Shown: positions 4,286-25,863 of the stretch, piece after piece
Layout of the letters: every line of letters begins with the position of its first letter
How positions within the stretch are numbered: the stretch's first letter is position 1
Position numbers and translations under genes: made by a program
Source of the DNA: a virus
IMG/VR virus record: IMGVR_UViG_3300009507_000024
Location: 1-53,744 of that record
DNA length: 53,744 nucleotides
Direction: 5' to 3' (one strand)
Notes under the pieces: model-generated
What the model was told of the DNA's origin: nothing
The model's database searches: none
The model's input: the letters and a program-made list of their open reading frames with translations, nothing else

Positions 4286-7200
4286 TTAAGCTCCTAACTC
4301 AGCTATCTCGCCTGTGTTTTTAATTCTCAATGGAATATAAATGAATTCAATAGCTTTAACTGGCTCAATAGCAATATCAATCCAAAGTTCATTTCTATCA
4401 ATTCTTGTAGGCGTATTGTTTGATTCGTCGCACACTACAACATAGTCATAAAGTGCTCTTAAACTTGCTAACTCTAACAAGAAGCCTTCTGCTGCCTGTT
4501 TGATTTGATCTCTTGTGATCTTATCATTTGGCTCAAACAAGTATGGTCTTGCAAGTTGTTCCAGCTGTGTTCTCATGTAAATTACAAGTCTTACAACATT
4601 AATTCTGTCTAGCGCACTTGCATTTCTTGCACGAGTCTTCTGTCCAAATACTGTAATACCAGATCCTGCAATAAACGATATAGGGTTAATATTATTCAAA
4701 TACATCGTGTCACGCTGTCCAGTGTTAAGCGAAATACTTCTAAATTCGCCTTCTGCTGTAACGTAACCTGTTGCTGTTGAATTAGTAACTCCGCCGCGTC
4801 TTGTACCTGCAGGTGCAAACCATGGATAGCTAACTTGATCACTTAGTATGATTGTTCTAAGTGCCATGTGACTCGGAGGAACAACAATGTTGTTGCCTAA
4901 ATTATCGCTTGTAAATCCTGATGGATAATACATTGCCATATATTCATCTCTACTTGGAGCACCATTTTCGTTATCTTCTACAGCAAGATTAGCATTTGAT
5001 GCCCATTCTTGTAATGTAGTTGCATCTGGTGTTAATCTAAATGGTGTATCTCCTACAACAAACCCTGTTAGTCTGCGTGTGTAGTTAAGATCAATCATTT
5101 CGCCAATTAGCTCAGGATATCCAGGTGTTGCCATTAAGTTAAATCTAATTAGTTCTTCGTCTCGAATATCTAAGTTACTATTAACCATAGCTTGTAGTTT
5201 TTGTACAACTGCCTTACGTTGTGCAAAACGTCCAAATGTACCTGAACCATCTTCATTGTTACCTGATTCAGTAACCCAACGATGTGGATAATAACCGTCC
5301 ATTGATTCATCGTTATTACGAATGTTGTCGTCTGTTGTATCGATCCAGTTACGCTCAAAACGCTTAACATTAAATCCGCTTCTACGTAGATTCCATAACA
5401 ACATGCCTCTCGGATATAGTGCTGGATCTGGAGCATCTGGATCCAAATAGTTACTTACTAATAGATCTTCAATGTCTGCTGCATCAATATCACTTCCTGC
5501 TGTTCCCCAACGAGCTTCGTCAAATAGAACACCGTTTTCAGAAGTTTGGTCTGTTGTATCAAGTAGTACCCATGTAGCAAGTGTAACACTATAACGATAA
5601 ATTGTTGGATAGTTGTCTAAATCTGATGTATCAATCCATAGATCGTTATCAACTAAAGCACTACCGTCTGACTGTTGTATAGGCTGTGTAGCACTAACAA
5701 TTGGGCCAGCTGGCGATGTATCTGGATATACATTTAGATAACCTTGCCAGCCATTAGTAGGTCCATCATGTACCATGATATCTACTTCGTCGATGATTGA
5801 ACTATACCATAGTTCTCCGTCAGCAGTCAATGAAGTTGGTGCATCAGGTGATGGTGTATAATCTAGTACTTTCCAATTTGACAGTAAGTATGTACCATCT
5901 ATTGCTGATACATCTCCATCTACAGCTGACACTGTAGTTACAGCATCAGCTGTAACTTGTGCTGGTGCTGCATAGAAGTTTGCAGTTGTTGTAGCATCAT
6001 CGGCATCATATACTGCATATCCTAAGTCTGCAAGTAATCCGTCGATATCATAAACAATAACATCTCCGCCTGTTGCATGTTTTAGTAAAATTCTGTTTTG
6101 TGCGTTAATTTCTGCTGTAACATTTGTTAATCCTGCACTATTAATTGCGCCTGCAACGTCATCAGCTACTCCTGATGTTGCTGGATTAGTAATTGTTACA
6201 GTAGCAACTTTTGGTGCTGCAAATTCACTACTATTAACTTTAGTTTCTGCAAACGCAATTTTAAAGCTGCCTGCACCTAATGTTGTTCCTGTGATTTTTT
6301 CGCTTGAAGCAATTGTTGCACCATTAAGGTTTCTTTTAAAGAATTTAAAGTTAGCAATGTTTGGTTCTGTAACTTCTTCAACATTTGTCTTTACATAAAG
6401 TTCGCCAATTCTTAAGTTTTCGCCGCCACCTGTTCTGTCTAACTCGTATAATGCTTCTGCACTTGTTTGATATACCGGTGTCGAAATTGTTCCCCAAAGC
6501 TGTGTATCTTCATTATACTGCTTAATTCTATAGTCCATTCCGCCGTTTGGTTCTGTAGTCTTGTACCAAATTGAACCAGTCGGTTTTGGAGCAGTATCTC
6601 CTGACTTAAATTCAGGAACATCAGTATGTGGCGATACTTGTAGTGCAGGTGAATAATATGTTCCTGCTGTAATACCAAACTCGCTCATTGCTGATCCACT
6701 GATTGTCATAGAATCATTTGTTGTATAAATTTCTAATTCGCCATCAACTACATTTGCACTTACTCCGGAAATTTCCTCTCCGTTAATTTCTTGTGCTAGT
6801 GTAAGAACGTTTGTACCTATTCTAGTAACAGTTGTTCCGTCGATAATAAATGTGTTTGTTGGATCAAAGGTTGTCGTGCTAGCAATTTCACTTCTTAGTG
6901 TCGGCCAACTACCTTTCCAATTATTAGATCCTACTTCTACCCAAGTACCAGTATTTGACTCTTTTGCTGCAATACTTGCACCGTATCCTGGCGACTTGTA
7001 ATAAAGTCTGTTTAATGTTGTAATTGCAACAACAGCATAATCGCCAACTTGTCCTACTGACTTTTTAGGAGCGCCTGGTGCAGTTAAGCTTTCGCCTGTA
7101 GTTCTTGCTACATCGCTAGGAGTTAATACAATAGGAGTTTTTGTTGTAAATGATTGTCCGCCTACAACTCTTACAGATGCACCGTTCCACTCTGTAATAC

Positions 7201-7633
7201 CAAAATCTGTTGATTCTACATCAAACCAATATGTATTATCTGCAGGTTCTCCGCCTGGAGGAGTAGCACTTGCTTCTAATTTTGCAAGGTCAATATCTGC
7301 TCTTGCAACATATACTCTATTAGTTACACCTAATAGTGAGTATGCTGTTTGTAATCCGTATTCGTTTAATTCACCGCCGTGAATCATATTGCCATTACCA
7401 TCATTCATAAACAGAGGATCACCAAATAGTTCTCCTAGTTCTCTTTGTGAAGTTAATAAGTAAGGCTTCTCTGCGTTTGCTTTTAGTGTCCCTTCGGCTA
7501 GACCTGATCCTGCGGAATTCGTTTTGTTTTCTTTCGATGCCACAAAGACCATTGGTACAGTACCAGCAGCCGCCGGAGTATAAAAACTCTCGTCGATTAC
7601 ATTGACTTCTACACCTGGTGAAAATAATGCCAT
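4286..7633 (-). CDS. gp18: contractile tail sheath protein (T4 gp18-like), with large inserted middle region
   Basis: The 1115-residue protein begins MALFSPGVEVNVIDESFYTP, a standard sheath N-terminus. It ends with the conserved C-terminal sheath core, for example ASALDRINVVRLVIYMRTQL and EPVKAIEFIYIPLRI. Sheath subunits polymerise round the gp19 tube and contract to drive injection. T4 gp18 is 659 aa. The extra roughly 450 residues lie between about residues 150 and 700, are rich in Ala, Thr, Gly and Asp, and contain repeated short beta motifs such as LWYSS, IWYKT and LWIDT. The insert probably forms surface domains on the sheath. A Shine-Dalgarno AGGAG lies 8-12 bases before the ATG and a late promoter at 7667-7674. 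Confidence 0.93.
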   Translation of the reverse strand: MALFSPGVEVNVIDESFYTPAAAGTVPMVFVASKENKTNSAGSGLAEGTLKANAEKPYLLTSQRELGELFGDPLFMNDGNGNMIHGGELNEYGLQTAYSLLGVTNRVYVARADIDLAKLEASATPPGGEPADNTYWFDVESTDFGITEWNGASVRVVGGQSFTTKTPIVLTPSDVARTTGESLTAPGAPKKSVGQVGDYAVVAITTLNRLYYKSPGYGASIAAKESNTGTWVEVGSNNWKGSWPTLRSEIASTTTFDPTNTFIIDGTTVTRIGTNVLTLAQEINGEEISGVSANVVDGELEIYTTNDSMTISGSAMSEFGITAGTYYSPALQVSPHTDVPEFKSGDTAPKPTGSIWYKTTEPNGGMDYRIKQYNEDTQLWGTISTPVYQTSAEALYELDRTGGGENLRIGELYVKTNVEEVTEPNIANFKFFKRNLNGATIASSEKITGTTLGAGSFKIAFAETKVNSSEFAAPKVATVTITNPATSGVADDVAGAINSAGLTNVTAEINAQNRILLKHATGGDVIVYDIDGLLADLGYAVYDADDATTTANFYAAPAQVTADAVTTVSAVDGDVSAIDGTYLLSNWKVLDYTPSPDAPTSLTADGELWYSSIIDEVDIMVHDGPTNGWQGYLNVYPDTSPAGPIVSATQPIQQSDGSALVDNDLWIDTSDLDNYPTIYRYSVTLATWVLLDTTDQTSENGVLFDEARWGTAGSDIDAADIEDLLVSNYLDPDAPDPALYPRGMLLWNLRRSGFNVKRFERNWIDTTDDNIRNNDESMDGYYPHRWVTESGNNEDGSGTFGRFAQRKAVVQKLQAMVNSNLDIRDEELIRFNLMATPGYPELIGEMIDLNYTRRLTGFVVGDTPFRLTPDATTLQEWASNANLAVEDNENGAPSRDEYMAMYYPSGFTSDNLGNNIVVPPSHMALRTIILSDQVSYPWFAPAGTRRGGVTNSTATGYVTAEGEFRSISLNTGQRDTMYLNNINPISFIAGSGITVFGQKTRARNASALDRINVVRLVIYMRTQLEQLARPYLFEPNDKITRDQIKQAAEGFLLELASLRALYDYVVVCDESNNTPTRIDRNELWIDIAIEPVKAIEFIYIPLRIKNTGEIAELGA

Positions 7634-10614: not shown

Positions 10615-12032
10615 TGCAACATTTTTACGATGGACAAATACGCAGATATATAACTCAGATGATTAGAATGATGAGTAACTTTCCTGTAAAAGATAGCAGT
10701 GGAAGTTTAAAACAAGTTCCTGTATTGTATGGCGATCTAACAAGGCAAGTTGCAAATATTATTAGAGAAAATTCAGAAAATAAGTTACCAAGTGCTCCTA
10801 GAATTAGTTTATATGTTACTGGACTAGAAATGGACAGAGACAGAATACAAGATCCTAGTTTTGTCCGAAAACAAAATGTTATTGAACGTGCATATGACGA
10901 AGACGGTAATGAATATTTGAATACTCAAGGTCGAAATTACACTGTAGAAAAAATGATGCCTACTCCTTATAAGCTAACAGTTAATGCTGATATATGGAGT
11001 TCTAATACAGATCAAAAGTTACAAATTTTAGAACAAATATTAATTTACTTTGATCCTAGTTTAGAAATACAAACTACTGATAACTATATCGATTGGGCAA
11101 GTTTAACTGTTGTTAATTTAGAAAATGTAAATTGGAGTAATAGAAGTGTTCCAATAGGTGTTGATTCAGAAATCGATATTGCCACGCTTACATTTAGCAC
11201 TCCAATATATCTAAGTCCTCCAGTTAAAGTTAAACGCTTGGGTGCAATAACAAATATCATTACAAGTATTTTCAATGAAGATACTGGAGATATCGATCTA
11301 GGCCTAGCAAGACCAGAATTAGAAAGATGGGACGATTATGCAGTTCCTGGACGTACAAGGAGCCCAGAAAAAGCAGCAACTACTAGCAATGATCAGCAAG
11401 CAAATGTTAATGACGGAATGTACGGTGTATATATCGAAGGCAATACAGCACAGATATACGGCAGAGGTGCGATAGGTACTGTAAATTGGAGAGATAATTT
11501 TTACAAATATCCAGGTACATATCAAGCAGGTATTAGCAGAATATATCTAACAGATCTAGATAATGATGCAACAGTTACTGGTACATTTACAATAAATGAA
11601 TTAAATGAAACTGTTATGTTAATTGACTGGGACACTGATAGTTTTCCTGATGACGATATCATATCCGGACCGAGTGGCGATAGAACAAGTATAGATTTTA
11701 TCATTGATCCTACAAAAAATAATCCTACAAATATTAAAACTGTAGGTGCTAGAATATTATTGTTAGAAGATGTAAGCAGTGACGAAGCAACACAATATCC
11801 AGAAGCGTGGAAAAACAACGACGGTAGTGGATTGATTGCTAATGCAAATGATATTGTTGAATGGGATGGTACAAAATGGGTTGTAATTTTTGACTCTCAA
11901 AATACCACATCTACAACATATATAACAAATCTTACTACCGGAAAACAATATAAGTTTAGCAATAGTGAGTGGTTACTAAGTGTTGAAGGTGAATATCCAG
12001 TTGGCACATGGAGACTCGACCTCTACGGCTAA
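10614..12032 (+). CDS. gp15: tail completion / sheath terminator protein (T4 gp15-like)
   Basis: The 472-residue protein carries the gp15 core over about residues 1-205: YDGQIRRYITQMIRMMSNFP, YGDLTRQVANIIRENSENK, ISLYVTGLEMDRDR and the repeated-looking TPYKLTVNADIWSSNTDQK. The segment IDIATLTFSTPIYLSPPVKV closes the core. gp15 caps the tail tube and sheath and binds the neck. T4 gp15 is 272 aa. The extra C-terminal 200 residues are beta-rich, Asp/Asn/Thr-rich and end in WRLDLYG, resembling a fibre-like appendage. It is translationally coupled to gp14 through TAATG, and a Nudix gene follows 8 bases after its stop. Confidence 0.88.
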   Translation: MQHFYDGQIRRYITQMIRMMSNFPVKDSSGSLKQVPVLYGDLTRQVANIIRENSENKLPSAPRISLYVTGLEMDRDRIQDPSFVRKQNVIERAYDEDGNEYLNTQGRNYTVEKMMPTPYKLTVNADIWSSNTDQKLQILEQILIYFDPSLEIQTTDNYIDWASLTVVNLENVNWSNRSVPIGVDSEIDIATLTFSTPIYLSPPVKVKRLGAITNIITSIFNEDTGDIDLGLARPELERWDDYAVPGRTRSPEKAATTSNDQQANVNDGMYGVYIEGNTAQIYGRGAIGTVNWRDNFYKYPGTYQAGISRIYLTDLDNDATVTGTFTINELNETVMLIDWDTDSFPDDDIISGPSGDRTSIDFIIDPTKNNPTNIKTVGARILLLEDVSSDEATQYPEAWKNNDGSGLIANANDIVEWDGTKWVVIFDSQNTTSTTYITNLTTGKQYKFSNSEWLLSVEGEYPVGTWRLDLYG

Positions 12033-12040
12033 TTATTTTT

Positions 12041-12484
12041 ATGAACAAGATAATTTGCAGTGGTGCTCTCTTTTATACCCTAGATACTAATCGATTCTTA
12101 TTTTTGCATAGAGCAATTAAGAAGAAAAATCTATGGGGATTAGTCGGCGGAACAACTGAAGGTAGCGAAACGCCGTGGGAAGGATTAATACGAGAAATAA
12201 ACGAAGAAATAGGTTTTTTACCAGATATTAAAAAAACTATTCCTTTAGAAACTTTTATTTCTTACGACGAACATTTTCATTTTCATACATACCTATGTGT
12301 TATTAAAGAAGAGTTTATACCTCAACTAAACGAAGAGCATGACGGTTATGCATGGGTTAGTTTTAGTAAATGGCCAAAACCCTTGCACGAAGGCCTGAGA
12401 AACACTTTGCAAAGTAAGATCAATCTAAAAAAATTAGAAACAGTATTTCAAGTAATTAATGCAATTGGAGATATAGATGGCTGA
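12041..12484 (+). CDS. Nudix hydrolase
   Basis: The protein is 147 residues from the ATG at 12041. An upstream in-frame ATG at 12008 lies inside gp15 and would only add a short, unlikely tail. The Nudix box is complete: G37, then E43, then R51-E52, E55-E56 and G58, fitting GX5EX7REUXEEXGU. Such enzymes cleave nucleoside diphosphates linked to another moiety, using divalent metal. Candidate substrates are NDP-sugars, dinucleotide cofactors and damaged dNTPs, and the sequence does not choose between them. The gene lies in the gp14-gp15 late operon and overlaps the next gene by 8 bases. T4 also encodes a Nudix enzyme (NudE), but this one is not clearly its orthologue. Confidence 0.88.
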   Translation: MNKIICSGALFYTLDTNRFLFLHRAIKKKNLWGLVGGTTEGSETPWEGLIREINEEIGFLPDIKKTIPLETFISYDEHFHFHTYLCVIKEEFIPQLNEEHDGYAWVSFSKWPKPLHEGLRNTLQSKINLKKLETVFQVINAIGDIDG

Positions 12485-12839: not shown

Positions 12840-13094
12840 ATGTTACCTAAGTTATCAAATTCAGAAAAACTAGTTAGTGAATTAAAATTCTTTGAAGCAA
12901 AAAGTAAATCATTATCCGAAGATGATCAAAAATACATTAAAAAAAGAATTATTAGAATAAAAGAATTATCAAATAATATAGATAATGCACACGATGTAAG
13001 ATTAAATGGATTTGTAAGCCCGAGTCTCATAGGAGATTCAAGACTTGAATTAAATCAAGCAAGGTATGAAATTTTTAAAAAATTACAGGACTGA
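12840..13094 (+). CDS. small helical protein, unknown
   Basis: The 84-residue protein is rich in Lys, Glu and Leu and is predicted to be nearly all helix. The C-terminal motif LNQARYEIFKKLQD follows a short linker, NGFVSPSLIGDSRLE. The start codon follows the cupin stop with no gap (TAAATG). The 3' end overlaps the convergent fibre gene by 12 bases. I do not recognise a family. It is the last gene of the gp14-gp15 late operon, so it should be a late product and could be an assembly factor. That is inference. Confidence 0.65.
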   Translation: MLPKLSNSEKLVSELKFFEAKSKSLSEDDQKYIKKRIIRIKELSNNIDNAHDVRLNGFVSPSLIGDSRLELNQARYEIFKKLQD

Positions 13095-13907
13095 TAAACG
13101 CTTTACAGTTATTTGACCAACCATTCCTGAATGTACTTGGCATTGGTATCTATATGTGCCAGAAATACTTTCTTGAACTCTCCAGTATAATGTTCCTTGA
13201 TCTTTACCTTGAGCAAGTGCTCCTTCACTAACTGTGCCGTCTATATCTACATGTACTAATCCAACGTTATAAGCATTTCCTACTGCATTTTGGATTTCTA
13301 AAGGATGCCCAGATATTCCTGCAAGATTAAATGCAATTGTAGTTCCTGCTATTACTACTATACTTGGATTATTTCCAGCATAGTGACTAGGAATTGTATA
13401 AGCGATAGTGCCATCATTGTCAAATTGATACATTGCTATTGCCGGTTCATATATTTTATCTACAGTAAGTCCAGTTGGTATATCAGTAAGCTCAGTAAAG
13501 GCACTACTGCCTCCGGCACCTGTAGCATCTGCTGCATTTGCCCACTGGATTCCGTCCCATTTTAAAACTTGTCCTGTTTGTATTGCATCAATTGTAACAT
13601 CATCTAAGTCAGCAAGTGACCCAGCACCGCCTCCGCCTCCAGCGACTGATGTAAAGCTAAACGAACCTGCGCCGTTGGTTGTTAAAACTTGACCATCTGT
13701 CCCGTCTTCGATTCCTAGGTCTAATAAATCATTAGGAATTATACCAGTAGTATCTGTAAGATCACTTATGTCACTTGGTATTTCGCCTGCGCCTGTATCA
13801 AACGCCGCAGATATTATATTCCAAGTTGTGCCATTCCACTTCCAAGTATTGCCACTACTTGTATATACATCATCCGGTGCTGGATTTATTGGAAAATTTA
13901 GTGCCAT
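13083..13907 (-). CDS. virion fibre-type protein with C-terminal cupredoxin-like domain
   Basis: This protein has 274 residues. The N-terminal part (1-35) is a short PDDVYTSSGNTWKWNGTTWN chip typical of marine phage fibres. Residues 60-96 form a hinge, DLLDLGIEDGTDGQVLTTNG, ending in a Gly run; it is followed by Gly/Ser-rich repeats with WKWDGIQWAN-like motifs. The last 100 residues look like a cupredoxin. H201 lies in the segment SGHPLEIQ, and the terminal YRYQCQVHSGMVGQITV gives C256, H259 and M262. The C-x2-H-x2-M spacing is that of amicyanin-type blue copper sites. All four copper ligands are thus present. The gene has its own late promoter (13927-13934), and it pairs with the cupredoxin-carrying protein at 15976-17229. 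Confidence 0.75.
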   Translation of the reverse strand: MALNFPINPAPDDVYTSSGNTWKWNGTTWNIISAAFDTGAGEIPSDISDLTDTTGIIPNDLLDLGIEDGTDGQVLTTNGAGSFSFTSVAGGGGGAGSLADLDDVTIDAIQTGQVLKWDGIQWANAADATGAGGSSAFTELTDIPTGLTVDKIYEPAIAMYQFDNDGTIAYTIPSHYAGNNPSIVVIAGTTIAFNLAGISGHPLEIQNAVGNAYNVGLVHVDIDGTVSEGALAQGKDQGTLYWRVQESISGTYRYQCQVHSGMVGQITVKRLSVL

Positions 13908-13926
13908 ATTTGCTTACCTCTACTCA

Positions 13927-13934
13927 TATTTATT
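13927..13934 (-). promoter_or_regulatory. T4-type late promoter octamer (AATAAATA variant)
   Basis: AATAAATA on the minus strand, 20 bases before the 274-residue cupredoxin-tailed protein. It overlaps the last base of the protease gene. Confidence 0.65.
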
Positions 13935-15967
13935 CATTTATTAAATCTTAATGTTAAACCATTTGTAAGTGCTATAGATGCAGTAACAGCTTGTCTCGGT
14001 CCTGGTATAAATCTAGCATCAAAAGGCCCTGGATACAGTACCCTTGCTGGGCCGCCTTCTAAACTATTATAGTCTAACCAGTTTGCATCGTTAGCTGTTG
14101 TGCTTTCAACTCCGTAATAAAAATCTGTAGGATCTTGCACATCAAGAGATGCTATCCAATTTTGTACTTCTTGATAAGTCCAATCTCTATTATGTTCTAG
14201 TATTGTAGCTAAAAATCCTGCTACTATAGGACATGCTGCACTAGTGCCGCTAAATGCACAGTCGTATGCAGGAATTTCTAATGTGTCATAAGTATCTGCA
14301 CGTATTCCTTCGTTTAGATAATTTTTGTTAGCTGCTAGTGTTCCATCGGCAGCAGCATACACATCAATTCCATTTCCTCTGTCACTATAATTCACTTTAC
14401 GTTCTAAATTTCCAACTGCATAGTCATCATCTAATGCACCGATGTTTATAGTTTTGTATGTGACTTCTCCGGTCCCCCCGTCAATAGCTTTGCCACCTTG
14501 TTGTGGAAATCCACGTCTATTGGTTGTGCCGGTTACTGCAACACCAAATTCACTATAATTACTTTCTTCTAATGTATCGTCACTATTGGCACTAATATAA
14601 TTATCAAAATCTGGATGGCCCCAATTAACTTGCTTTTGATTACTATTTCCTGAAGCAACAACAAATAATACACCGCTATCAATAAGTTCGTCTAGTGCAG
14701 TTGTAAGTGAGTTAGTTTTCATTTCACTTTTCCAGCGCCCACCGTCACCTGTTACGCCCATATTAGAAATAAAATTTGGTTCATTTTCAATACCGTTGTA
14801 TGTAACTGCTAGATCGTTTCTAAAATGATACCATCCTGGGTTATCACCTTTGCTTGAACGATAACCCCAACTATTTGAACTTATTGTAGGATTTCTATTT
14901 CCAAATTGTGGATTAATAGGCTTATATAAATGAAAAGCTTTTTGTATATCGAAACCTGTTTCGATACCTGCGCCGTAAGAGCCGTATAAATCTAGCATCC
15001 ATTTATTAGCATTATACGCCCAGCCTTGTGTTCTTCCGTATGTTAAAGCACAACATGGTGTTCCGTGCTGTCCTTCACTATTTGGATTAGGCTGTAAAGT
15101 GTTATCACCTTGTGTATTATTTCTAGTATAAAGCGGCGATACAGATATAGAACCGATAGGAATAAACTGCGGACTTCTGTTTCCTGGATTTAGCCACCAT
15201 TGTCTTGCTTCTGCTTCAGTGGGCACAATAGTGCCATCAAATCGTGTAGTTAGCCGGGTGCCAGGATCTTCATTAAACCAGTCAGGGTCTATATAATACG
15301 GTCCGTCTAAATATACATCTAAAATATCACAAGTACCATTTCCTGGTAGAAGATTGCCGCCTACATAGTCTGCAGGTGATTCAATTGCAGATCCGTCTTG
15401 CTCTAGTCTTACATTATTTTGGAATTCTGGATGCCCTATCCAACAGCCTTCGTCGGCAACTATTACATCGATATTTTTTCCACTACCGTATTGAGAAATT
15501 GTAGCTTCAGGAACAGCATTATCTGCTAAACTATTATCTACCCATGGATCTAAAAACTGTTGGTGTCTATATAATTGATATCCAGATCTGTTAGCATCTG
15601 TCGAATCAGTATTAACCGGAAGTGTATTGCTAGTTTCAAACTCTCGATAATTTTTTATTGTGCCGGTATATCTTTGAACTAAGATAGGTCTAATACTTTG
15701 AAGTTCATCTTGTGGTGGCTTATATTCATCATACATAGAATAATCTATATTAATAAATTTAATTCTGCTGTCACTCTTTAGTAGATTAGCTTCAGTGTCT
15801 GTTAATAAAAAAGTTCCTCTAGTAGGACTGTGCAGTTTATCATCATAACATGTACATTCTCTATCCGGAATATAATCTTCACTAGTTTTAGCACATAACA
15901 AGTCATGTACTTCTACAAACTGTTCAGCTGTATGTGTTCCTAATTGATAGTATTTTTCTTCGGACAT
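13934..15967 (-). CDS. subtilisin-like serine protease (S8 family), likely virion-associated
   Basis: The 677-residue protein has all subtilase landmarks. Asp172 lies in DVIVADEGCWIGHPEF, His301 in QHGTPCCALTYG, the oxyanion Asn441 in LFVVASGNSNQ, and the nucleophile Ser576 in CAFSGTSAACPIVAGF. It has no signal peptide. The N-terminal 150 residues resemble a pro-region or virion-anchoring part rather than a secretion signal. The family hydrolyses peptide bonds in proteins. Located between two cupredoxin-bearing virion proteins and read from their late promoter (17252-17259, gap 8 bases), it is likely packaged in, or processes, the virion. A role in degrading host surface protein is an alternative. 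The active site is complete, so activity is expected. Confidence 0.88.
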   Translation of the reverse strand: MSEEKYYQLGTHTAEQFVEVHDLLCAKTSEDYIPDRECTCYDDKLHSPTRGTFLLTDTEANLLKSDSRIKFINIDYSMYDEYKPPQDELQSIRPILVQRYTGTIKNYREFETSNTLPVNTDSTDANRSGYQLYRHQQFLDPWVDNSLADNAVPEATISQYGSGKNIDVIVADEGCWIGHPEFQNNVRLEQDGSAIESPADYVGGNLLPGNGTCDILDVYLDGPYYIDPDWFNEDPGTRLTTRFDGTIVPTEAEARQWWLNPGNRSPQFIPIGSISVSPLYTRNNTQGDNTLQPNPNSEGQHGTPCCALTYGRTQGWAYNANKWMLDLYGSYGAGIETGFDIQKAFHLYKPINPQFGNRNPTISSNSWGYRSSKGDNPGWYHFRNDLAVTYNGIENEPNFISNMGVTGDGGRWKSEMKTNSLTTALDELIDSGVLFVVASGNSNQKQVNWGHPDFDNYISANSDDTLEESNYSEFGVAVTGTTNRRGFPQQGGKAIDGGTGEVTYKTINIGALDDDYAVGNLERKVNYSDRGNGIDVYAAADGTLAANKNYLNEGIRADTYDTLEIPAYDCAFSGTSAACPIVAGFLATILEHNRDWTYQEVQNWIASLDVQDPTDFYYGVESTTANDANWLDYNSLEGGPARVLYPGPFDARFIPGPRQAVTASIALTNGLTLRFNK

Positions 15968-15975
15968 TTTTTACC

Positions 15976-17229
15976 TTAAACTATTGGAGTTGTGTCTATA
16001 CTTGCCCATGCGCCATTTACATATGCTTCTAATCTATTATTAGTAGTGTTATAAATCATGTCTCCATTTTCAGCAATTAATGCGTCACGACCTGTGTCAT
16101 CGAAACTTGCTAATTTAAAAGGAGTAGTTGTAATACTTACTCGAGTAGTACCTGTCAATAATATTTCATTATCAGATACAAGTTCTGGAGTTCCAGAGCC
16201 CGATGTTATAATATCACCTGTTGCAAGAGTCAAATCGCCACTTAATAAAAGATTTGGAGTTATAGTAATGTCACTAGCATCTGATGTGTTTATAATGCTG
16301 TCTGTAAATGTAACATTTCCAGTGTCGCCGCCTCCGCCGCTTTGATTTATAAATTCAAATGTTCCATCGGCATTGGTTGAAAGTACTTGCCCGGCAACCC
16401 CATCAGTAATGCCTAAGTCTAATAAACTATCTGCAATCGGAATCGAAGGTTGTACCCATTGACCGCTATCAACATCTACCAAATATACATATAATGCACC
16501 GGAACTAGCATTAAACCAAACACTTCCGTTTTCCGGTTCTTCTGGCGGTGTTGCACTTGCTGTAACACTAGCACTTCCCGACCCAGTGCCAGGTAGGGCA
16601 GTTGTAATTTCAGCTCCCATTCCTGTATGATTTGAGCAATAATAATATAATGTTTCAGAAGTTGCAATATCAATATTAATTAATACTTTTCGCACTGTTG
16701 CTCTTTGAAATCCACTTTCATATTCAACTCGCGATACTTCAATATCATCTAGTATATACCTTACACCTAAGGTGTATTCTGTGCCCGATCCAGTATCTCC
16801 GTTAGGATCATCTGCACTAAAGAATAAAGGATGTTGATTGTTTGCGCCGCCTGTTTCGTTAGGATAAAACACATTAGTAGGATCAGATTGATCAAACACA
16901 TATGTGTAGCCCTTTACAAAATTTAAATCTGGCTTATACTCAGAATTTATATAAAATTTATTACCGGTATCGTCGCCTTGTGCTGCCCCAACAGTTACAG
17001 GATATGTTATAGCAGCAATGTTAGCAGAACTTGAATTTCTTACAAAACTACTGTCTGTAACAACTTCAAATCCGCCACGATTAATTGTTCTTCCGCTAAA
17101 AAGTCTTAGTGTGTTGGTTTCTTTTGAAAAGAATACTTCGCCACTAGACCCACTAGCTCTATCTAAGAATTCTTTAGCTCTTGGAATGATCCTTATGCGA
17201 TCAACAATAGGTGCGTTTGTACCAGCCAT
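15976..17229 (-). CDS. virion protein with N-terminal cupredoxin-like domain and fibre-type C-terminus
   Basis: The 417-residue protein has a beta-rich N-terminal part. Over residues about 95-215 it contains a cupredoxin-like domain: H133 in NNQHPLFFSAD and the end motif LYYYCSNHTGMGAEITT with C198, H201 and M204 (C-x2-H-x2-M). A hinge, SLLDLGITDGVAGQVLSTNA (about residue 268), matches the hinge of the 13083-13907 protein, but here it lies after the cupredoxin, not before. The C-terminus is a fibre chip, MIYNTTNNRLEAYVNGAWAS. It is probably a late virion component. The late promoter CATAAATA (17252-17259) stands 22 bases before the start and overlaps the divergent hldD promoter region. Confidence 0.75.
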   Translation of the reverse strand: MAGTNAPIVDRIRIIPRAKEFLDRASGSSGEVFFSKETNTLRLFSGRTINRGGFEVVTDSSFVRNSSSANIAAITYPVTVGAAQGDDTGNKFYINSEYKPDLNFVKGYTYVFDQSDPTNVFYPNETGGANNQHPLFFSADDPNGDTGSGTEYTLGVRYILDDIEVSRVEYESGFQRATVRKVLINIDIATSETLYYYCSNHTGMGAEITTALPGTGSGSASVTASATPPEEPENGSVWFNASSGALYVYLVDVDSGQWVQPSIPIADSLLDLGITDGVAGQVLSTNADGTFEFINQSGGGGDTGNVTFTDSIINTSDASDITITPNLLLSGDLTLATGDIITSGSGTPELVSDNEILLTGTTRVSITTTPFKLASFDDTGRDALIAENGDMIYNTTNNRLEAYVNGAWASIDTTPIV

Positions 17230-17294: not shown

Positions 17295-18170
17295 ATGAAA
17301 TATTTGGTTACAGGCGCTGCTGGATTCATCGGCAGCAATTTAGTTAAAAAACTAAACACAGAAGGACACACAGACATTGTTTGTGTTGATGATCTTTCGC
17401 AAAATAATATTCAAAACATACAAGGGCTATCATATTCAGACTTTGTTTCAAAAGAAGACATAGAAAGAATATTTCATAAAGAATTTGATACTGTATTTCA
17501 CTTAGGCGCTGTTTCAAATACAAGAGCATCTAACTGGGATGAAATATATCAAAACAATATTGTTTTTACAAAGCAACTTTTTGATATGACACGTCATAGA
17601 AACTTTGTTTTTGCTAGTAGTGCTAGTGTATATGGAGACAGTAAGAATACACTAGAAACATCAACTAATGAAGCACCTAAAAATCTTTATGCTGCTAGTA
17701 AGTTGATCTGCGATAATTGGTTAAGACATCAAGGATGTCAGTATCAAAGTTGGAGATTTTTTAATGTGTATGGAAGTAGAGAAACAAGCAAGTTAGAATC
17801 AAACAGTAGTAGTCCATACACAACATTTAAGCAACAAGCATTAGAAAAGGGCGTAATAAAAATATTCGAAGGTAGTGATAAAATATTGCGTGACTTTATT
17901 AGTGTAGATGATGTAGTAGAAGTTATCTATCGTAAGCATTCTGACAATGATACATTTGTTAGTAATTTGGGCACAGGAAAACCTTCTAGTTTTAGTAACT
18001 GGGCAGGATTAATTGCTTCTAAATATAACGCTAAAATTGAACTCACTGAATTTCCTAATGATCTAAAGAAAGGCTATCAGTATTACACTTGTAGCAACAA
18101 TTCTACTTTAAATACCCTTATAGACTATAAGTTCAAAACACCTGAGGAATGGTTTAACAAATATGACTAA
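17295..18170 (+). CDS. hldD: NAD(P)-dependent epimerase, ADP-L-glycero-D-manno-heptose 6-epimerase-like
   Basis: The 291-residue extended short-chain dehydrogenase has the nucleotide motif TGAAGFIGSN (G7, G10, G13). Its catalytic segment FASSASVYGDS is followed by Y132-x3-K136. The middle RFFNVYGSRE and the downstream DKILRDFISVDDVV are typical of HldD (E. coli protein 310 aa). HldD converts ADP-D-glycero-beta-D-manno-heptose to the L-glycero form, the last step of ADP-heptose supply for LPS. The assignment is strengthened by the adjacent hldE, which overlaps by 8 bases. A sigma70-type promoter lies at once upstream, and no Shine-Dalgarno is visible. Another NDP-sugar epimerase cannot be fully excluded. 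Confidence 0.85.
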   Translation: MKYLVTGAAGFIGSNLVKKLNTEGHTDIVCVDDLSQNNIQNIQGLSYSDFVSKEDIERIFHKEFDTVFHLGAVSNTRASNWDEIYQNNIVFTKQLFDMTRHRNFVFASSASVYGDSKNTLETSTNEAPKNLYAASKLICDNWLRHQGCQYQSWRFFNVYGSRETSKLESNSSSPYTTFKQQALEKGVIKIFEGSDKILRDFISVDDVVEVIYRKHSDNDTFVSNLGTGKPSSFSNWAGLIASKYNAKIELTEFPNDLKKGYQYYTCSNNSTLNTLIDYKFKTPEEWFNKYD

Positions 18171-19305
18171 AGTTCTAGTAATAGGCGATATAATCATTGA
18201 CAAATATATTTACGGTACAAGTACTCGGATAAGTCCCGAAGCTCCTGTTCCTGTAATTACATATAAGCGTGAAGTTGAAACACTTGGCGGTGCAGGACTT
18301 GTATATGAGAATCTTAAAAGTTTAGGTGTTGATGTTGAACTAGTTGATATCTTCGACAAAGTAAGTGTTAAGACTAGAGTAATTTGTGACGGACATTATA
18401 TTACACGCATTGACGAAGATTATCACGCAGACAGCAAACAATTACTTGATTATATTCTATCACGAGATTTTAGTGATTACGAGTATGTTATCCTAAGTGA
18501 CTACAACAAAGGCACATTAGACGAATCTTTAAAAATTATCGAACATCTAAACACATTTGGTTGTAAGGTAATTGTAGATCCTAAAGAACACGCAAATCAT
18601 TATAAAGGTGCTTGGCTTGTAAAACCTAACTACAAAGAGTTTGGAGACTTTGGATTTACTAACTGGGGCGGAAATATCATCACTACTAATGCTGGCGATA
18701 ATGTTGTTGCACTTATAGACAGCAAAGTGTATGACATTCCTGTAGATAATCTAGAAGTAGCAGATGTTACAGGAGCAGGCGATTGTTTCTTGGCAGCATT
18801 TGTGTATGGATTAACTAGAGGATATGACTATAAAAAATCATTAGAAGTAGCAGTCAAAGGTTCTACACAAAGTGTAAAACACAGCGGCACTTATATTCTA
18901 AACACAAATGACCTAGAAGAACGTGTAATTTTTACTAACGGTGTATTTGATATATTACACAAGGGGCATTTTAAATTGCTTAACGAAGCTCGCAGTTTAG
19001 GCGATAAACTAATTGTAGGTATTAACAGCGATGCTAGTGTAAAAAGATTAAAAGGTGAAACACGCCCTATTAATAATCAAATGAAACGTATCAGTCAGCT
19101 AGAAATTTTACCATGGGTAGATCAAGTAGTTGTATTCAACGAAGATACACCTTACGAATTAATTAAAGAATTAAAGCCGCATGTAATTGTAAAAGGCGGC
19201 GACTACACAATAGAAACAGTTGTTGGGCACGATTTAGCTGATGTACATCTAGTACAAACTGTAGAAGGTTATTCAACAACAAGCATTATAGAGGCATCAC
19301 AATGA
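18163..19305 (+). CDS. hldE: bifunctional heptose 7-phosphate kinase / heptose 1-phosphate adenylyltransferase
   Basis: The 380-residue protein fuses both HldE activities. Residues 1-250 form a pfkB/ribokinase-type kinase. The substrate loop is LGGAGLVYENLKSLG (HldE usually reads GGAANVA), and the catalytic motif is DVTGAGD (D201-D207). Residues 254-380 are a nucleotidyltransferase with IFTNGVFDILHKGHFKLLNE (HKGH at 266-269), INSDASVKRLKGETRPI and VKGGDY. The reactions are heptose 7-phosphate to the 1,7-bisphosphate, and heptose 1-phosphate plus ATP to ADP-heptose. E. coli HldE has 477 aa, so the kinase lobe is trimmed by about 80 residues. GmhA (isomerase) and GmhB (phosphatase) are not in the window and may come from the host. 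Start and stop overlap both neighbours. Confidence 0.9.
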   Translation: MTKVLVIGDIIIDKYIYGTSTRISPEAPVPVITYKREVETLGGAGLVYENLKSLGVDVELVDIFDKVSVKTRVICDGHYITRIDEDYHADSKQLLDYILSRDFSDYEYVILSDYNKGTLDESLKIIEHLNTFGCKVIVDPKEHANHYKGAWLVKPNYKEFGDFGFTNWGGNIITTNAGDNVVALIDSKVYDIPVDNLEVADVTGAGDCFLAAFVYGLTRGYDYKKSLEVAVKGSTQSVKHSGTYILNTNDLEERVIFTNGVFDILHKGHFKLLNEARSLGDKLIVGINSDASVKRLKGETRPINNQMKRISQLEILPWVDQVVVFNEDTPYELIKELKPHVIVKGGDYTIETVVGHDLADVHLVQTVEGYSTTSIIEASQ

Positions 19306-19661
19306 CAAGACTAGAAGGCGAAGTAAAAAAAGGTTGGGGCAGTGAAACTATTTTCGCTACTAATGATCTATATTGCGGTAAGCTACTAAACTTTAACAAA
19401 GGCGCAAAATTTAGTATGCACCTCCATAAAGAAAAAGATGAAACTTGGTACGCACTTAGTGGAAAGTATTTAATTACTATTATTAATACTAAAGATGCTA
19501 GTCAAAAAGAATTTACATTTAATCAAGGCGAAACGTGGCGCAACGAACCAATGCTGCCTCATCAAATTATGTGTATTGAAGCAGGTACAATTATTGAAGT
19601 AAGCACACCGGACAGTGTAGAGGACAATTACAGAGTAGGAAAAGGTGACAGTCAAAGATGA
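19302..19661 (+). CDS. cupin-domain protein (sugar-nucleotide isomerase-like)
   Basis: The 119-residue single cupin domain has an intact first motif: FSMHLHKEKDETWYALSG gives HxHx4Ex6G. The second motif reads MLPHQIMC, with one His after Pro. This is the mannose-6-phosphate isomerase-like / NDP-sugar isomerase cupin pattern. Such proteins bind a divalent metal and often isomerise or epimerise sugar phosphates or NDP-sugars. Its position inside the hldD-hldE operon, with 4-base ATGA overlaps on both sides, argues for a role with heptose phosphates or their derivative. The exact reaction cannot be read from sequence. It is a better preserved relative of the cupin at 12477-12839. Confidence 0.8.
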   Translation: MTRLEGEVKKGWGSETIFATNDLYCGKLLNFNKGAKFSMHLHKEKDETWYALSGKYLITIINTKDASQKEFTFNQGETWRNEPMLPHQIMCIEAGTIIEVSTPDSVEDNYRVGKGDSQR

Positions 19662-20407
19662 GTAATTTATGGGTATTCGGTGACAGTTATACTGTACATA
19701 GTGATAAAAATAAAGATCTGTTATGGCCTTCTAAATTAGCAAAAAAGTTAGATGTTAAAAATTTTAATAATTGGAGTCAATATGGTGTATCAAACGAATA
19801 TATTTCATCCGGATTTAATTTACACTCCCGTAACATACAAAAAGATGACTACATTATTTTTATAGTTACCTGGAAAGGAAGAAATTGGTTCTTTGAAGAT
19901 CATCCCGAAATGTCTAACTTAAATATGGTAAATTCAGACGCTATAGTTAATAAAAAATACGGCCGAGAGGCTAAAAAAGCAGTAAAGTATTTTGAACAAT
20001 ATTTAGAAAGCGAACGGCTTGCAAATATAAAATTACAGTGGTATTACGGTTATCTTCAGTATTTAGAAACAATATTTCCAAACTTAATGATTATTCCTGC
20101 ATTTAATAACGAATTTCATTATGATAATAATTTCGAAGTAAAAGGGACTCTATTTGACATAGGATTTGACGAATACAAAACTGAAGAAATTGGAGAAGAA
20201 ATTTTTTTAAAAAAATGGAAAAGATTTGATATGAGAGCCGGACATATGTCAGTTGTAAATCATGATATTATGTGCAAAAAAATCTACGACACATTTACAA
20301 AAAATGTGCCGCTGGATTTAGATTCTGGATTTGAAAAAAACTTTATTAATTTACAAAACTATAATGAATTCGAAACAGTCGATAGAACTCATTTATTAGA
20401 TTTATAA
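19658..20407 (+). CDS. SGNH/GDSL-like hydrolase
   Basis: The 249-residue protein starts MSNLWVFGDSYTVHSD, giving the block-I nucleophile Ser10 in GDS. Near the C-terminus, DMRAGHMSVVNHDIM supplies the likely acid/His pair. The N-terminal segment lacks a signal peptide. SGNH enzymes are esterases, and many act as O-acetyl or other O-acyl transferases or esterases on sugars. As the last gene of the heptose operon (4-base overlap with the cupin gene), it may modify or strip acyl groups on the phage-made sugar or host polysaccharide. That is inference. Its 3' end overlaps the convergent gene by 19 bases. Confidence 0.7.
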   Translation: MSNLWVFGDSYTVHSDKNKDLLWPSKLAKKLDVKNFNNWSQYGVSNEYISSGFNLHSRNIQKDDYIIFIVTWKGRNWFFEDHPEMSNLNMVNSDAIVNKKYGREAKKAVKYFEQYLESERLANIKLQWYYGYLQYLETIFPNLMIIPAFNNEFHYDNNFEVKGTLFDIGFDEYKTEEIGEEIFLKKWKRFDMRAGHMSVVNHDIMCKKIYDTFTKNVPLDLDSGFEKNFINLQNYNEFETVDRTHLLDL

Positions 20408-21369
20408 GGATCGTAATCTGGATCATCATCCCATACTGGTTTAGATGCTAGACCGTCTCTTAAATCTTCCCAATTTGACGGCCTTCCTTTTTCCGGACGG
20501 AGATATAGATCTTCAGGTTTAAAATCAGGGTTGTCTCTAGGATCAGGCAATTCTGATTCAGCTTTTTCCCACGAAATATGATAGATTTGTTTTAACTTTA
20601 TTGTAACCCATTCTTTGTCATCATCATTCCATAATGTAATAAGTGATTCAGGATCATTTCTAGCCGACTGTGGTTCTTCTGGAGCCATATCTTGTACAGG
20701 GGGTTCTGGTACAACATCAGACTTTAATGTCATATTGACTTTGTACTTTACCTTATGATTTGCCATTTGAACACTTTCTCTAGCAGGAAATCTTTCAGGC
20801 ATGTCTTCTTCATCAACAAAATAATCTACTTCTGCATAATATTTTGAAAATTTATACAACAGCCAATGCTGATTGGCATACCATTTTTTTAAGTTCATGT
20901 TAAACATATGATGTATTCTCCGTATATTAACTGGTTCCCATTCTTCGTCATCAGCATCCCATACTGTAATTGTAGCTTCAGAACTATCAGGATCATTAGA
21001 TGGTGCGTTGCCGCCGCATGGAACTATGTCAGGACGTAAAGTCATAACATAAGACTTTACAGTGTCGGCTGGATGATTTACACGTAGATCACTAGGAACT
21101 TGTCCTCCGCCTTTTCTTTGAGGGATGTGTCCTCCAGTTTCTATGTAGCATATATTGTTTTCTAGAAGGTATAAAAAATGCGGTTTCATCATTTTTACTT
21201 CTTCATCGGTAAGATATTCTTCTGCCGATTCTGGATACTTTGCTGCCCACTCAGCATCGCTCATTACTTTTAAATCTTCGTCCATTTGTTTTGAGATAGG
21301 ATCTTGTTCTAACTCGTTTAGTCTTCTTGTGTATAGATCAACTTCTTCTTCTTCATTACTATATTTCAT
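20389..21369 (-). CDS. acidic protein with two tandem WYL_2/Sm-like (DUF2693-type) domains
   Basis: The 326-residue acidic protein contains two similar domains. The first (about 105-154) has YVMTLRPDIVPC and then ITVWDADDEEWEPVNIRRIH. The second (about 207-265) has VNMTLKSDVVPE and ITLWNDDDKEWVTIKLKQIY. This resembles the small SH3/Sm-like domain found singly in many phages. The N-terminal 100 residues and the Asp/Pro-rich C-terminus are low complexity. No catalytic motif is seen. It starts 8 bases after the second carbamoyltransferase and is the last gene of that run. A scaffold or protein-interaction role is only a guess. Confidence 0.65.
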   Translation of the reverse strand: MKYSNEEEEVDLYTRRLNELEQDPISKQMDEDLKVMSDAEWAAKYPESAEEYLTDEEVKMMKPHFLYLLENNICYIETGGHIPQRKGGGQVPSDLRVNHPADTVKSYVMTLRPDIVPCGGNAPSNDPDSSEATITVWDADDEEWEPVNIRRIHHMFNMNLKKWYANQHWLLYKFSKYYAEVDYFVDEEDMPERFPARESVQMANHKVKYKVNMTLKSDVVPEPPVQDMAPEEPQSARNDPESLITLWNDDDKEWVTIKLKQIYHISWEKAESELPDPRDNPDFKPEDLYLRPEKGRPSNWEDLRDGLASKPVWDDDPDYDPYKSNK

Positions 21370-21377
21370 TTGTTTTC

Positions 21378-23003
21378 CTACAATAATTTATTTTCATCTA
21401 CAAAATATAAGTGATTTAACTCACTGTTATTTAATACTTCTAATGCTTGTAATTTTGTTTGCACCAACGGCTGTCCTGCTAGATTAAAACTAGTATTAAG
21501 TAACATCGGACAGCCTGTTAATTTATAAAATTCTTGTAATAAATCATATAAAAATCCATTATTTACTGTTTGTATTCTGCATGTTGAATCTACATGTACT
21601 ATACCAGGAACCATATTTAAAGTATGAGGTTTAGCATTGAAATTTATAGTCATGTATTCTGATTTCTGATATCCCAATGTATCAAAATATTCTTCAAAAT
21701 ATTCTTCTAATATTACGCCTGCAAATGGCCTATACCATTCTCTATTTTTAATTCTATTAACTATTTCTTTAGTGTCAGCATTTCTAGGATCAAACAATAT
21801 CGATCTATGTCCTAAAGCCCTTGGACCTGCTTCTGGACTACCGTTAAAAACAGCTAAAGATTTTTTATTAATTAGTATATCACATAGCTCTTTTATATTT
21901 GTTGTACTTCCCTTATTTACTACAGTGTCATTGTAGTAATGATAAAAATTGTTATCAACACCTTCTACCCAAGTATTAGTGTTTTCATATTGTTTTAATA
22001 TAGTAGCACCTAAACTTATTCCTGTATCGTCAGCATTAGGTTCAAAATAGAAATTTACATCAGGTAAATTTTTAATATAGAAATTATTAGCTACTACATT
22101 TAACCCGTATCCTCCTACTATACATACATTTTTTACACCAGTCTCATTAACATATTTTTTTATCAACGATAACATTTCATTTTGAGTTTCTACTTGTACT
22201 TGTTTAGCTTTATCAGCATAGTACATGTAGTTATTTTCATTAACATCATCAGTGATGTAATTTATACTATCGGAAAAAGTTACTCCTAACTCATTTCCAA
22301 TATAGCCAGTAAATTTTTCACTAATAGGCATATTATCAACAAATAAGTTTTCAAAATTATCTTTTGTGCTATACGAAGATAATCCCATAGTTTTACCATT
22401 TTCTAAAGGATGTTGTCCTATTAGTGTAGTTGCAGCTTCATATACTTTAACAACCGAATACTCACTATCACAAACTACTTTGCAGTCATAATATTCCTGT
22501 ATATTATTCTTAATAATATGTTTTTGATTTGTTGGACCTGTTATAAAAAAGTTTTTTTGTAAATGATTAATACTATCTTTATTAACTCTATACACGCTTT
22601 CACATTCTCTTGCAACATCGTGACCATCTATATAAAAAGACGAGCCGTTTCTATCAACAACAAACACTAATGCTTCATCAAAGTTACTATTTGAATATGC
22701 TAAAGCCATATGACAATCATGATGTTTTAAATCAGAATAATTTTCCATTCTTTTATCAAAAATTTTATTAATATACATTGATAAAATACCTTCAACATCA
22801 TGTTGAGAATTTGAAGGAGTGCAATAAAGGACATGATCTATGTGTTTTGTGTTAAGAGACCGAAACAACTCTAAAGATTTAAAAGGTACTTGATCTCTTT
22901 TTACACCAGTAAGGCGTTCTTCCTTACAAAAGAACTCTATCTTTCCGTTGTCAATACAACATACTGACGAATCGTGTGCAACAGAAAATGCAAGTATTCT
23001 CAT
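21378..23003 (-). CDS. NodU/TobZ-family carbamoyltransferase (copy 2)
   Basis: The 541-residue protein has an N-terminal ASKHA-type ATP/carbamoyl-adenylate domain with the metal motif LKHHDCHMALAY (H94, H95, H98) and FVVDRNGS. The C-terminal domain has GPRALGHRSILFDPR, NREWYRPFAGVILEEYF, DSTCRIQTV and GCPMLLNTSFNLAGQPLV. Family members transfer a carbamoyl group from carbamoyl phosphate, via carbamoyl-AMP, to hydroxyl groups of sugars or antibiotics. It begins at the base after the stop of the other carbamoyltransferase (TAA then ATG), so the two are translationally coupled. The two differ clearly in length and sequence, so they may use different positions or acceptors. All key motifs are present. 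Confidence 0.9.
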   Translation of the reverse strand: MRILAFSVAHDSSVCCIDNGKIEFFCKEERLTGVKRDQVPFKSLELFRSLNTKHIDHVLYCTPSNSQHDVEGILSMYINKIFDKRMENYSDLKHHDCHMALAYSNSNFDEALVFVVDRNGSSFYIDGHDVARECESVYRVNKDSINHLQKNFFITGPTNQKHIIKNNIQEYYDCKVVCDSEYSVVKVYEAATTLIGQHPLENGKTMGLSSYSTKDNFENLFVDNMPISEKFTGYIGNELGVTFSDSINYITDDVNENNYMYYADKAKQVQVETQNEMLSLIKKYVNETGVKNVCIVGGYGLNVVANNFYIKNLPDVNFYFEPNADDTGISLGATILKQYENTNTWVEGVDNNFYHYYNDTVVNKGSTTNIKELCDILINKKSLAVFNGSPEAGPRALGHRSILFDPRNADTKEIVNRIKNREWYRPFAGVILEEYFEEYFDTLGYQKSEYMTINFNAKPHTLNMVPGIVHVDSTCRIQTVNNGFLYDLLQEFYKLTGCPMLLNTSFNLAGQPLVQTKLQALEVLNNSELNHLYFVDENKLL

Positions 23004-24863: not shown

Positions 24864-25863
24864 TTTTTGTTCCTAGTCCAGAAAGATTTGGTAATGATTT
24901 TACATTTGATTGTGTTTTTACTGTTGTCGGTGTTCTTTTTTCTATTGATTTATAAATTTTACTATACACATCTTTTCTATCGCCGATTTTCATACATCTA
25001 TCATTATTACGTTCAATTTCTTCATCCATTGCAATTCGTATAGGTGAATAACGTTTATTGCCTTCGTCTATGTCAATTATATCTACGTTACTACTATTAA
25101 CATACGATGTATTAATAGCAAATGTAGATCCTAAAACAACAGTAGTAGGTGTATCTAATGAATGAGCAAGATGTTGCCCTACACTATCACAACCTAAAAA
25201 ATGATCTGAATTTTTTATAATACCGGACCACTCTCTAAGTCCTATATTTTGAGGATGACTTACAGGTTCTTTGCATCCTAGATCGCTAAAGGGAACACTA
25301 AACTCGCTCATTAGCATAATAGCATAACCTTTTTCTTGTAGCTTAGAAGCTATTTCGGCAGCTTCCATAACATCAAAACTTCTGCCGCCTGAATCATAAA
25401 CAAACCCATTAACATTGTTACTACTTCTGCCAAATGGCTGAAATACAATTACTTTGTCTTTTTTAGTTTTTTCTCTAACTTCTTTAACAGCAAGAAACCC
25501 TTTTACATCTTCGTCAGTGTTTAACTCAAGTGTAGATTTTGGTAATTCTCGTATGCCTTTATTATTAATTTGTATATCAAATGCTTGAGCAAGGCTGCAC
25601 TCTTGATTATAATATTCCCATACCCTGTATGGTTCTGTTGATACACAATTTCTTTGTTTTATTTTTTCTTCGAAAAGCCCTTTGTGATTTACATCATAGC
25701 AGCGAGAATGTAACACGGAATGATTTTTGAACATATCCATTCCGCCTTCGCAAATAATGATAAAATCGTCATCTGGATTTTCTTTAGCAAAAAGTTCGAG
25801 CGCTGGAATAGAGCTTATTACTCTTCCAGCGCCTCCGTTGATAAAAAATGCTGAGCTTCTCAT
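24850..25863 (-). CDS. GT9-like (ADP-heptose:LPS heptosyltransferase-like) glycosyltransferase
   Basis: The 337-residue protein has a two-lobe GT-B pattern. The N-terminus FFINGGAGRVISSIPALELF corresponds to the GxGD...PAL segment of heptosyltransferases. The C-terminal lobe has IGLREWSGIIKNSDHFLGCD, SVGQHLAHSLDTPTTVVLGS and the VFQPFGRSSNN strand-loop. GT9 enzymes move L-glycero-D-manno-heptose from ADP-heptose to an acceptor. In E. coli WaaC the base Asp13 follows the Gly of this N-terminal loop; here that place is Arg14, so activity or mechanism may differ. The Thr/Lys-rich C-terminal tail (about residues 310-337) looks disordered. The upstream gap (25864-25928) holds no late promoter. With hldD/hldE nearby, heptose is the likely donor sugar. 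Confidence 0.75.
   Translation of the reverse strand: MRSSAFFINGGAGRVISSIPALELFAKENPDDDFIIICEGGMDMFKNHSVLHSRCYDVNHKGLFEEKIKQRNCVSTEPYRVWEYYNQECSLAQAFDIQINNKGIRELPKSTLELNTDEDVKGFLAVKEVREKTKKDKVIVFQPFGRSSNNVNGFVYDSGGRSFDVMEAAEIASKLQEKGYAIMLMSEFSVPFSDLGCKEPVSHPQNIGLREWSGIIKNSDHFLGCDSVGQHLAHSLDTPTTVVLGSTFAINTSYVNSSNVDIIDIDEGNKRYSPIRIAMDEEIERNNDRCMKIGDRKDVYSKIYKSIEKRTPTTVKTQSNVKSLPNLSGLGTKNGKK

Follow-up and report, generated by a model that had tools for sequence, protein, structure and literature searches.

Complete predicted type 1 copper sites are present in two proteins encoded among the tail genes of a marine virus (IMG/VR record IMGVR_UViG_3300009507_000024, positions 1 to 53,744; this whole stretch of 53,744 nucleotides is referred to as the window). 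We propose that the two proteins, p274 and p417, would be distal tail proteins of the fibre or baseplate type, each with one intact type 1 cupredoxin module. Bound copper would clamp the loop between the final two beta-strands, and the module would be shown on the tail exterior as an exchangeable domain with a part in host-surface contact. A tail-associated subtilase of the same operon may work alongside it. We give this proposal as a whole, a copper-clamped type 1 beta-sandwich on the distal tail that is used in host contact, a probability of roughly 55%. Its computed parts are the fold, the ligand conservation, the tail-protein context, the linkage to a protease and the wide spread in aquatic phages.

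The features discussed here are listed below; the profile matches refer to two family alignments, A1 (15 sequences, including the p274 domain and without the p417 domain) and A2 (13 sequences).

13083-13907, minus strand: p274, a 274-amino-acid fibre-type protein with an N-terminal W-x-WNGT-x-W fibre segment, a Gly-rich linker with a LLDLGI-DG--GQVL repeat and a C-terminal cupredoxin.
13086-13427, minus strand: predicted cupredoxin domain of p274, residues 161-274 (A1 profile match at 13089-13433, E 7.6e-39; AlphaFold2 pLDDT 86.8; Foldseek match to amicyanin, 1.4e-5).
13305-13307, minus strand: His201 of p274, first predicted copper ligand (translation and alignment).
13122-13142, minus strand: predicted ligand loop of p274, Cys256-x2-His259-x2-Met262 (translation and alignment).
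13934-15967, minus strand: subtilisin-family (S8) protease of 677 amino acids, between both cupredoxin genes (PF00082, E 2.6e-19; phrog_9158, 1e-96).
15976-17229, minus strand: p417, a 417-amino-acid fibre-type protein with an internal cupredoxin and C-terminal fibre segments.
16594-17031, minus strand: predicted cupredoxin domain of p417, residues 67-212, a long form with a helical insert (A1 match at 16600-16962, E 3e-12; AlphaFold2 pLDDT 84.6).
16831-16833, minus strand: His133 of p417, first predicted copper ligand (translation and alignment).
16618-16638, minus strand: predicted ligand loop of p417, Cys198-x2-His201-x2-Met204 (translation and alignment).

The order on the minus strand is p417, subtilase, p274, with gaps of 8 and 26 bases and plus-strand genes on both flanks, and by this layout the three genes look like a single operon. 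The original prediction, made from the letters of the window, had placed the two domains in a tail component, and PHROG searches agree. Residues 17-269 of p274 match phrog_677 (gp9 baseplate wedge-tail fibre connector, E 2e-21), and p274 also matches the C-terminus of phrog_9158. Residues 70-208 of p417 match phrog_708 (baseplate wedge subunit, E 1e-15), with further matches to phrog_3304 and phrog_9729 (tail fibre). We infer from this tail and baseplate context that both proteins are located in the virion.

The A1 profile matched exactly two places in the whole window, the domains of p274 (E 7.6e-39) and p417 (E 3.0e-12); only the p417 match is independent, since A1 contains the p274 domain and not the p417 domain. 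AlphaFold models built from the A1 and A2 alignments reached mean pLDDT values of 86.8 for p274 and 84.6 for p417, and the strand layout of the p274 model agrees with that of cupredoxins. With the p274 model, Foldseek retrieved amicyanin (1.4e-5), followed by AcoP, rusticyanin, plastocyanin and laccases; with the p417 model, the best matches were a multicopper oxidase (6e-4) and rusticyanin (8.5e-4). VIA-align superposed p274 on a cupredoxin domain of a copper nitrite reductase with a Z score of 11.3 and 2.7 A over 112 residues (the top row for p274 has a Z score of 11.7, but at 6.4 A over 125 residues), and p417 likewise on a nitrite reductase cupredoxin domain with a Z score of 8.4 and 2.8 A over 102 residues. 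The modelled structural match of p417 is weaker than that of p274, and its fold call leans also on the profile evidence.

Searched against the PDB, the two profiles reached plastocyanins at 5e-7 (A1) and 2e-5 (A2), in alignments that pair His, Cys, His and Met with the copper ligands, and they matched each other with a probability of 99.9%, both alignments having some rows in common. The Pfam family PF00127 (Copper-bind) scored p274 at 17.4 bits (19.3 for the domain alone), below the curated cut-off of 21.2, and did not match p417; among the A1 relatives it matched 9 of 15 at E values up to 0.1 (best 6.8e-8). Cupredoxin_1 (PF13473) had no match in the window, and phmmer with p417 alone retrieved nothing from the PDB up to an E value of 10. 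Structural matches dominated by copper proteins, together with profiles that reach PDB plastocyanins, bear out the cupredoxin fold suggested earlier. We conclude that both window domains are real cupredoxins, with a predicted Greek-key beta-sandwich like that of the solved ones.

His-Cys-His-Met is the type 1 copper set. The residues named in the original prediction are found exactly in the translations (H201, C256, H259 and M262 in p274; H133, C198, H201 and M204 in p417), as is the C-x2-H-x2-M ligand loop of amicyanin in both proteins. His, Tyr, Cys, His and Met are the only invariant columns of A1 and A2, in which mean column identity is 37-39%. We collected 224 unique related domains from bacterial genomes, isolated phages and IMG/VR. 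In this set, the four ligands and a Tyr at Cys-2 rank as the top five columns by conservation: Tyr, Met, His and Cys are each present in 99.1%, the first His in 98.7% and Gly, the next column, in 95.5%. Loss of ligand conservation across the family, the outcome that could have overturned the claim of a type 1 set, did not occur. After clustering at 50% identity (26 representatives) the ligands are kept in 92-96%. An artefact of the search is countered by 47 alignable domains without a search seed around Cys-His, 45-46 of which keep the ligands, although profile-based collection still favours ligand-bearing members. The ligand is the single Cys of the domain in 216 of the 224. Domains of the p274 and p417 type thus very likely bind copper, a strongly supported prediction, and copper would be their native metal.

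The ligands have been lost in a few relatives: P-SS2, L195 and the second copy in L117. A large protein adjoining gp9 in Syn9, P-SSM4, S-RIM8 and S-MbCM6 carries, in one chain, a first cupredoxin with Cys-His-Met and then a motif-less copy; in P-SSM4 and S-MbCM6 this second cupredoxin-like copy lacks the Cys-His-Met motif, and the Syn9 and S-RIM8 counterparts were partly read. Such copies would fit a domain that has given up its metal and serves as a plain beta-sandwich adhesin, as the original prediction had allowed. For the window domains this is very unlikely, as both keep all ligands, and in the family the ligands stand out as the top columns against the low mean column identity. The losses elsewhere show that nothing prevents the ligands from changing once they are dispensable, and their retention in other domains carries more weight for that reason. 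Given the ligand-less copies in virion proteins, the fold can also do its work without metal.

The established roles of cupredoxins are those of electron carriers and oxidase domains. The nearest solved relatives of the phage domains are electron-transfer cupredoxins, and the complete ligand set with its conserved axial Met would be consistent with a Cu(I)/Cu(II) cycle that serves to detect the host envelope or to remove harmful oxidants. The axial Gln variant of one phage, as in stellacyanin, points the same way. We nevertheless consider a redox role improbable: the module recurs with a protease and with no other partner, neither a redox partner nor a second copper centre is linked to it, and a virion has no known electron source. 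Structural stiffness, redox sensing and host-surface binding had all been raised earlier; the placement of the domains favours host contact over redox sensing, and the metal probably serves stability or binding, not electron transfer.

Two further features of the site vary. The axial Met is replaced by Gln in Cyanophage P-RSM6 (L093; C-H-H-H-T-G-Q), a stellacyanin-type substitution. Pro follows the first His in 91% of the 224 domains, at a position where plastocyanin and azurin have Asn. In a type 1 site, such a change would alter the backbone hydrogen bond to the Cys sulphur. With His-Pro instead of His-Asn the second shell differs, so the potential and colour of the phage sites may be unusual.

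The module is widespread. Among isolated phages, one family query matches 349 records, mostly Synechococcus and Prochlorococcus phages, and gp9 is the common annotation among the matches listed. In IMG/VR, two subfamily queries have relatives in at least 587 and at least 560 stretches, two sets that may overlap. A cupredoxin annotation is almost absent among the matching phage records and IMG/VR stretches. The C-terminus of gp9 has the full motif in Syn9, P-SSM4, S-RIM8, S-MbCM6 and ACG-2014d. Tail fibres with the module occur in Methylophilales phage Melnitz and Pelagibacter phage Mosig, and a putative tail fibre carries it in Pelagibacter phage Baldr. In loci from SAR11 assemblies, the carrier protein has a T7-type fibre N-terminus (PF03906, 7.5e-33) and the cupredoxin near its C-terminus. 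The structure matches in BFVD come from the same kinds of protein (gp9, S8 peptidases and fibres), most of which are not named as cupredoxins. Judged from sequence, the cupredoxin is a shuffled module of aquatic phage tail proteins. Many phage tails probably carry copper, because the domain is common in the tail and baseplate proteins of ocean phages and its ligands are the most conserved positions.

Where the module sits bears on what the metal does. The domain ends within 15 residues of the C-terminus in 90 of 184 complete carrier proteins. It is also found inside gp7-type baseplate proteins, deep within very large ones, and as a connector-type domain. These internal positions, and the persistence of ligand-less copies within the same proteins, would suit copper as a purely structural clamp that stiffens a linker or spacer beta-sandwich and has no direct host-binding role. 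Such a clamp should be replaceable by a disulphide or a hydrophobic core, yet conservation is about 99% across the full set, even at the weak axial Met, and in fibres and gp9 the module lies near the C-terminus. We regard the purely structural clamp as possible but the less likely account. For the copper-clamped module on the tail exterior, participation in host contact is suggested by placement only, and we rate it as an even chance.

The subtilase encoded between p417 and p274 carries the Asp, His and Ser motifs of subtilases near residues 172, 301 and 576. Its homologues occur in four arrangements: with adjoining cupredoxin genes (the window and L026), with a cupredoxin inserted near residue 500 (L042, L049 and L064), with a C-terminal cupredoxin fusion (S-H9-1 and ACG-2014e) and without a cupredoxin. 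The family phrog_9158 is a subtilase-cupredoxin fusion; the window instead has two separate adjacent genes that match its N- and C-terminal parts. The recurrent pairing of protease and cupredoxin points to a shared site of action in the tail. The subtilase (13934-15967) is itself conserved across many marine phage contigs, directly after a fibre gene whose C-terminus is of the p417 type, and its homologues have one or two insertion points that are occupied by a cupredoxin or by other segments.

Two family members are linked to purified or annotated virions. About nine peptides of P-SS2 ORF080 (63255-63593) were detected by mass spectrometry of purified particles (PMC2784084). By its coordinates (match at 63264-63578 of GQ334450) this protein belongs to the family, and it is one of those that have lost the ligands. 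The S-SCSM1 protein gp141 has the full ligands, and its record carries the note ‘virion protein’; the S-SCSM1 paper gives a total of 45 virion proteins detected by mass spectrometry (PMC9602691).

In the tree, a long branch supported at 100/100 separates the p274 domain from the p417 domain. The p274 domain groups with the subtilase-linked domains, and the p417 half holds phage domains together with cellular relatives. We rejected a recent duplication, given these two deep, separate subfamilies and an identity of 21-26% between the p417 domain and p274-type domains. Some of the matches in genome assemblies look like cellular proteins. In SAR86 (L125 and L128) these are proteins of 160-180 amino acids with an intact predicted cupredoxin, lipobox-like N-termini (by eye) and a conserved chromosomal neighbourhood. 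The Opitutia relative is a secreted protein with TSP3 repeats and full ligands, and the Flavobacteriaceae relatives are giant surface proteins. By profile, all belong to the same family as the phage domains, with full ligands in SAR86 and Opitutia; they differ in that they are cellular, with N-termini that resemble signal peptides or lipoboxes by eye, and are not virion parts.

Marine bacteria have family members that are secreted or lipoprotein-like, which would be in keeping with a Trojan horse, in which the tail cupredoxin mimics a host copper carrier and docks on an outer-membrane copper receptor. A loose precedent is azurin, which reportedly leaves the cell through a contractile type VI system and binds OprC, a copper transporter of the outer membrane (PMC6907878); a parallel has also been published for phage tail fibres that carry iron (PMC11705849). 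However, the azurin-OprC complex was not reproduced by another group (PMC8610252), no receptor is known for these phages, and the module spans phages of very different hosts. We consider such mimicry unlikely. Similarly speculative is the broader idea that marine phage tail cupredoxins are metal lures that mimic bacterial copper carriers and dock on host copper-uptake receptors, with copper-dependent adsorption and with particles forming a marine pool of protein-bound copper.

The copper-clamped tail module resembles several known systems in part. Amicyanin, plastocyanin and rusticyanin (PF00127) are its best solved matches and share its fold, the His...Cys-x2-His...Met order and an aromatic residue two before Cys, and the C-x2-H-x2-M spacing is that of amicyanin. 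Unlike these soluble electron carriers, the phage domain is a module of larger tail proteins, has His-Pro in place of His-Asn, is only about 15-28% identical to solved proteins in the Foldseek alignments and stays under the Pfam cut-off. Cyanomyovirus gp9 (phrog_677), to which p274 aligns over residues 17-269, has a C-terminal cupredoxin with full ligands that is itself without annotation in the cyanomyovirus records. Compared with gp9, p274 is shorter and adjoins a subtilase instead of standing in a gp7-gp9-gp8 array. Ig-like accessory domains of tailed phages are shuffled beta-sandwich modules on many virion proteins. They have no metal site, whereas the metal ligands of the phage cupredoxin are its most conserved positions.

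A type 1 copper protein, petE, is found in the same phages, where it acts as a host-type plastocyanin in the electron flow of photosynthesis (PMC3037559; PMC2984593). We rejected a simple petE of host photosynthesis for the window, as its cupredoxins are parts of tail (structural) proteins. The HxH fibre tips of the T4 gp37 type likewise place a metal in a phage tail fibre (PMC11705849). They hold iron in an octahedral sphere of paired histidines (PMC11705849), whereas each window domain has one predicted type 1 copper site.

The fold and the site are already known; what is new is their use as a widespread tail module, which is undescribed in the open-access literature searched. Within that open-access scope, we found nothing that links ‘cupredoxin’ with phage tails or virions. 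An intact predicted copper site appears to be a standard building block in much-studied ocean phages, in cyanomyovirus gp9 and in pelagiphage fibres. If copper is bound, there may be many copper ions per particle, and adsorption could depend on copper. Viruses would then enter marine copper cycling, as has been proposed for iron-carrying phages in iron cycling.

Other genes of the window also merit mention. The last 100 residues of a 1115-amino-acid protein (4286-7633, minus strand) match the tail sheath C-terminal domain, and the protein is unusually long for a sheath-like one. A 158-amino-acid protein among the tail genes (12008-12484, plus strand) is Nudix hydrolase-like by eye. A sugar-type gene cluster lies within the tail region (17295-25863) and encodes a carbamoyltransferase (1e-51), a weak match to glycosyltransferase family 9 and, by eye, epimerase-like and bifunctional kinase/nucleotidyltransferase-like proteins. 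A 1247-amino-acid protein (42582-46325, minus strand) has a Laminin-G-type lectin domain (4.5e-22) and is another likely host-binding virion protein.
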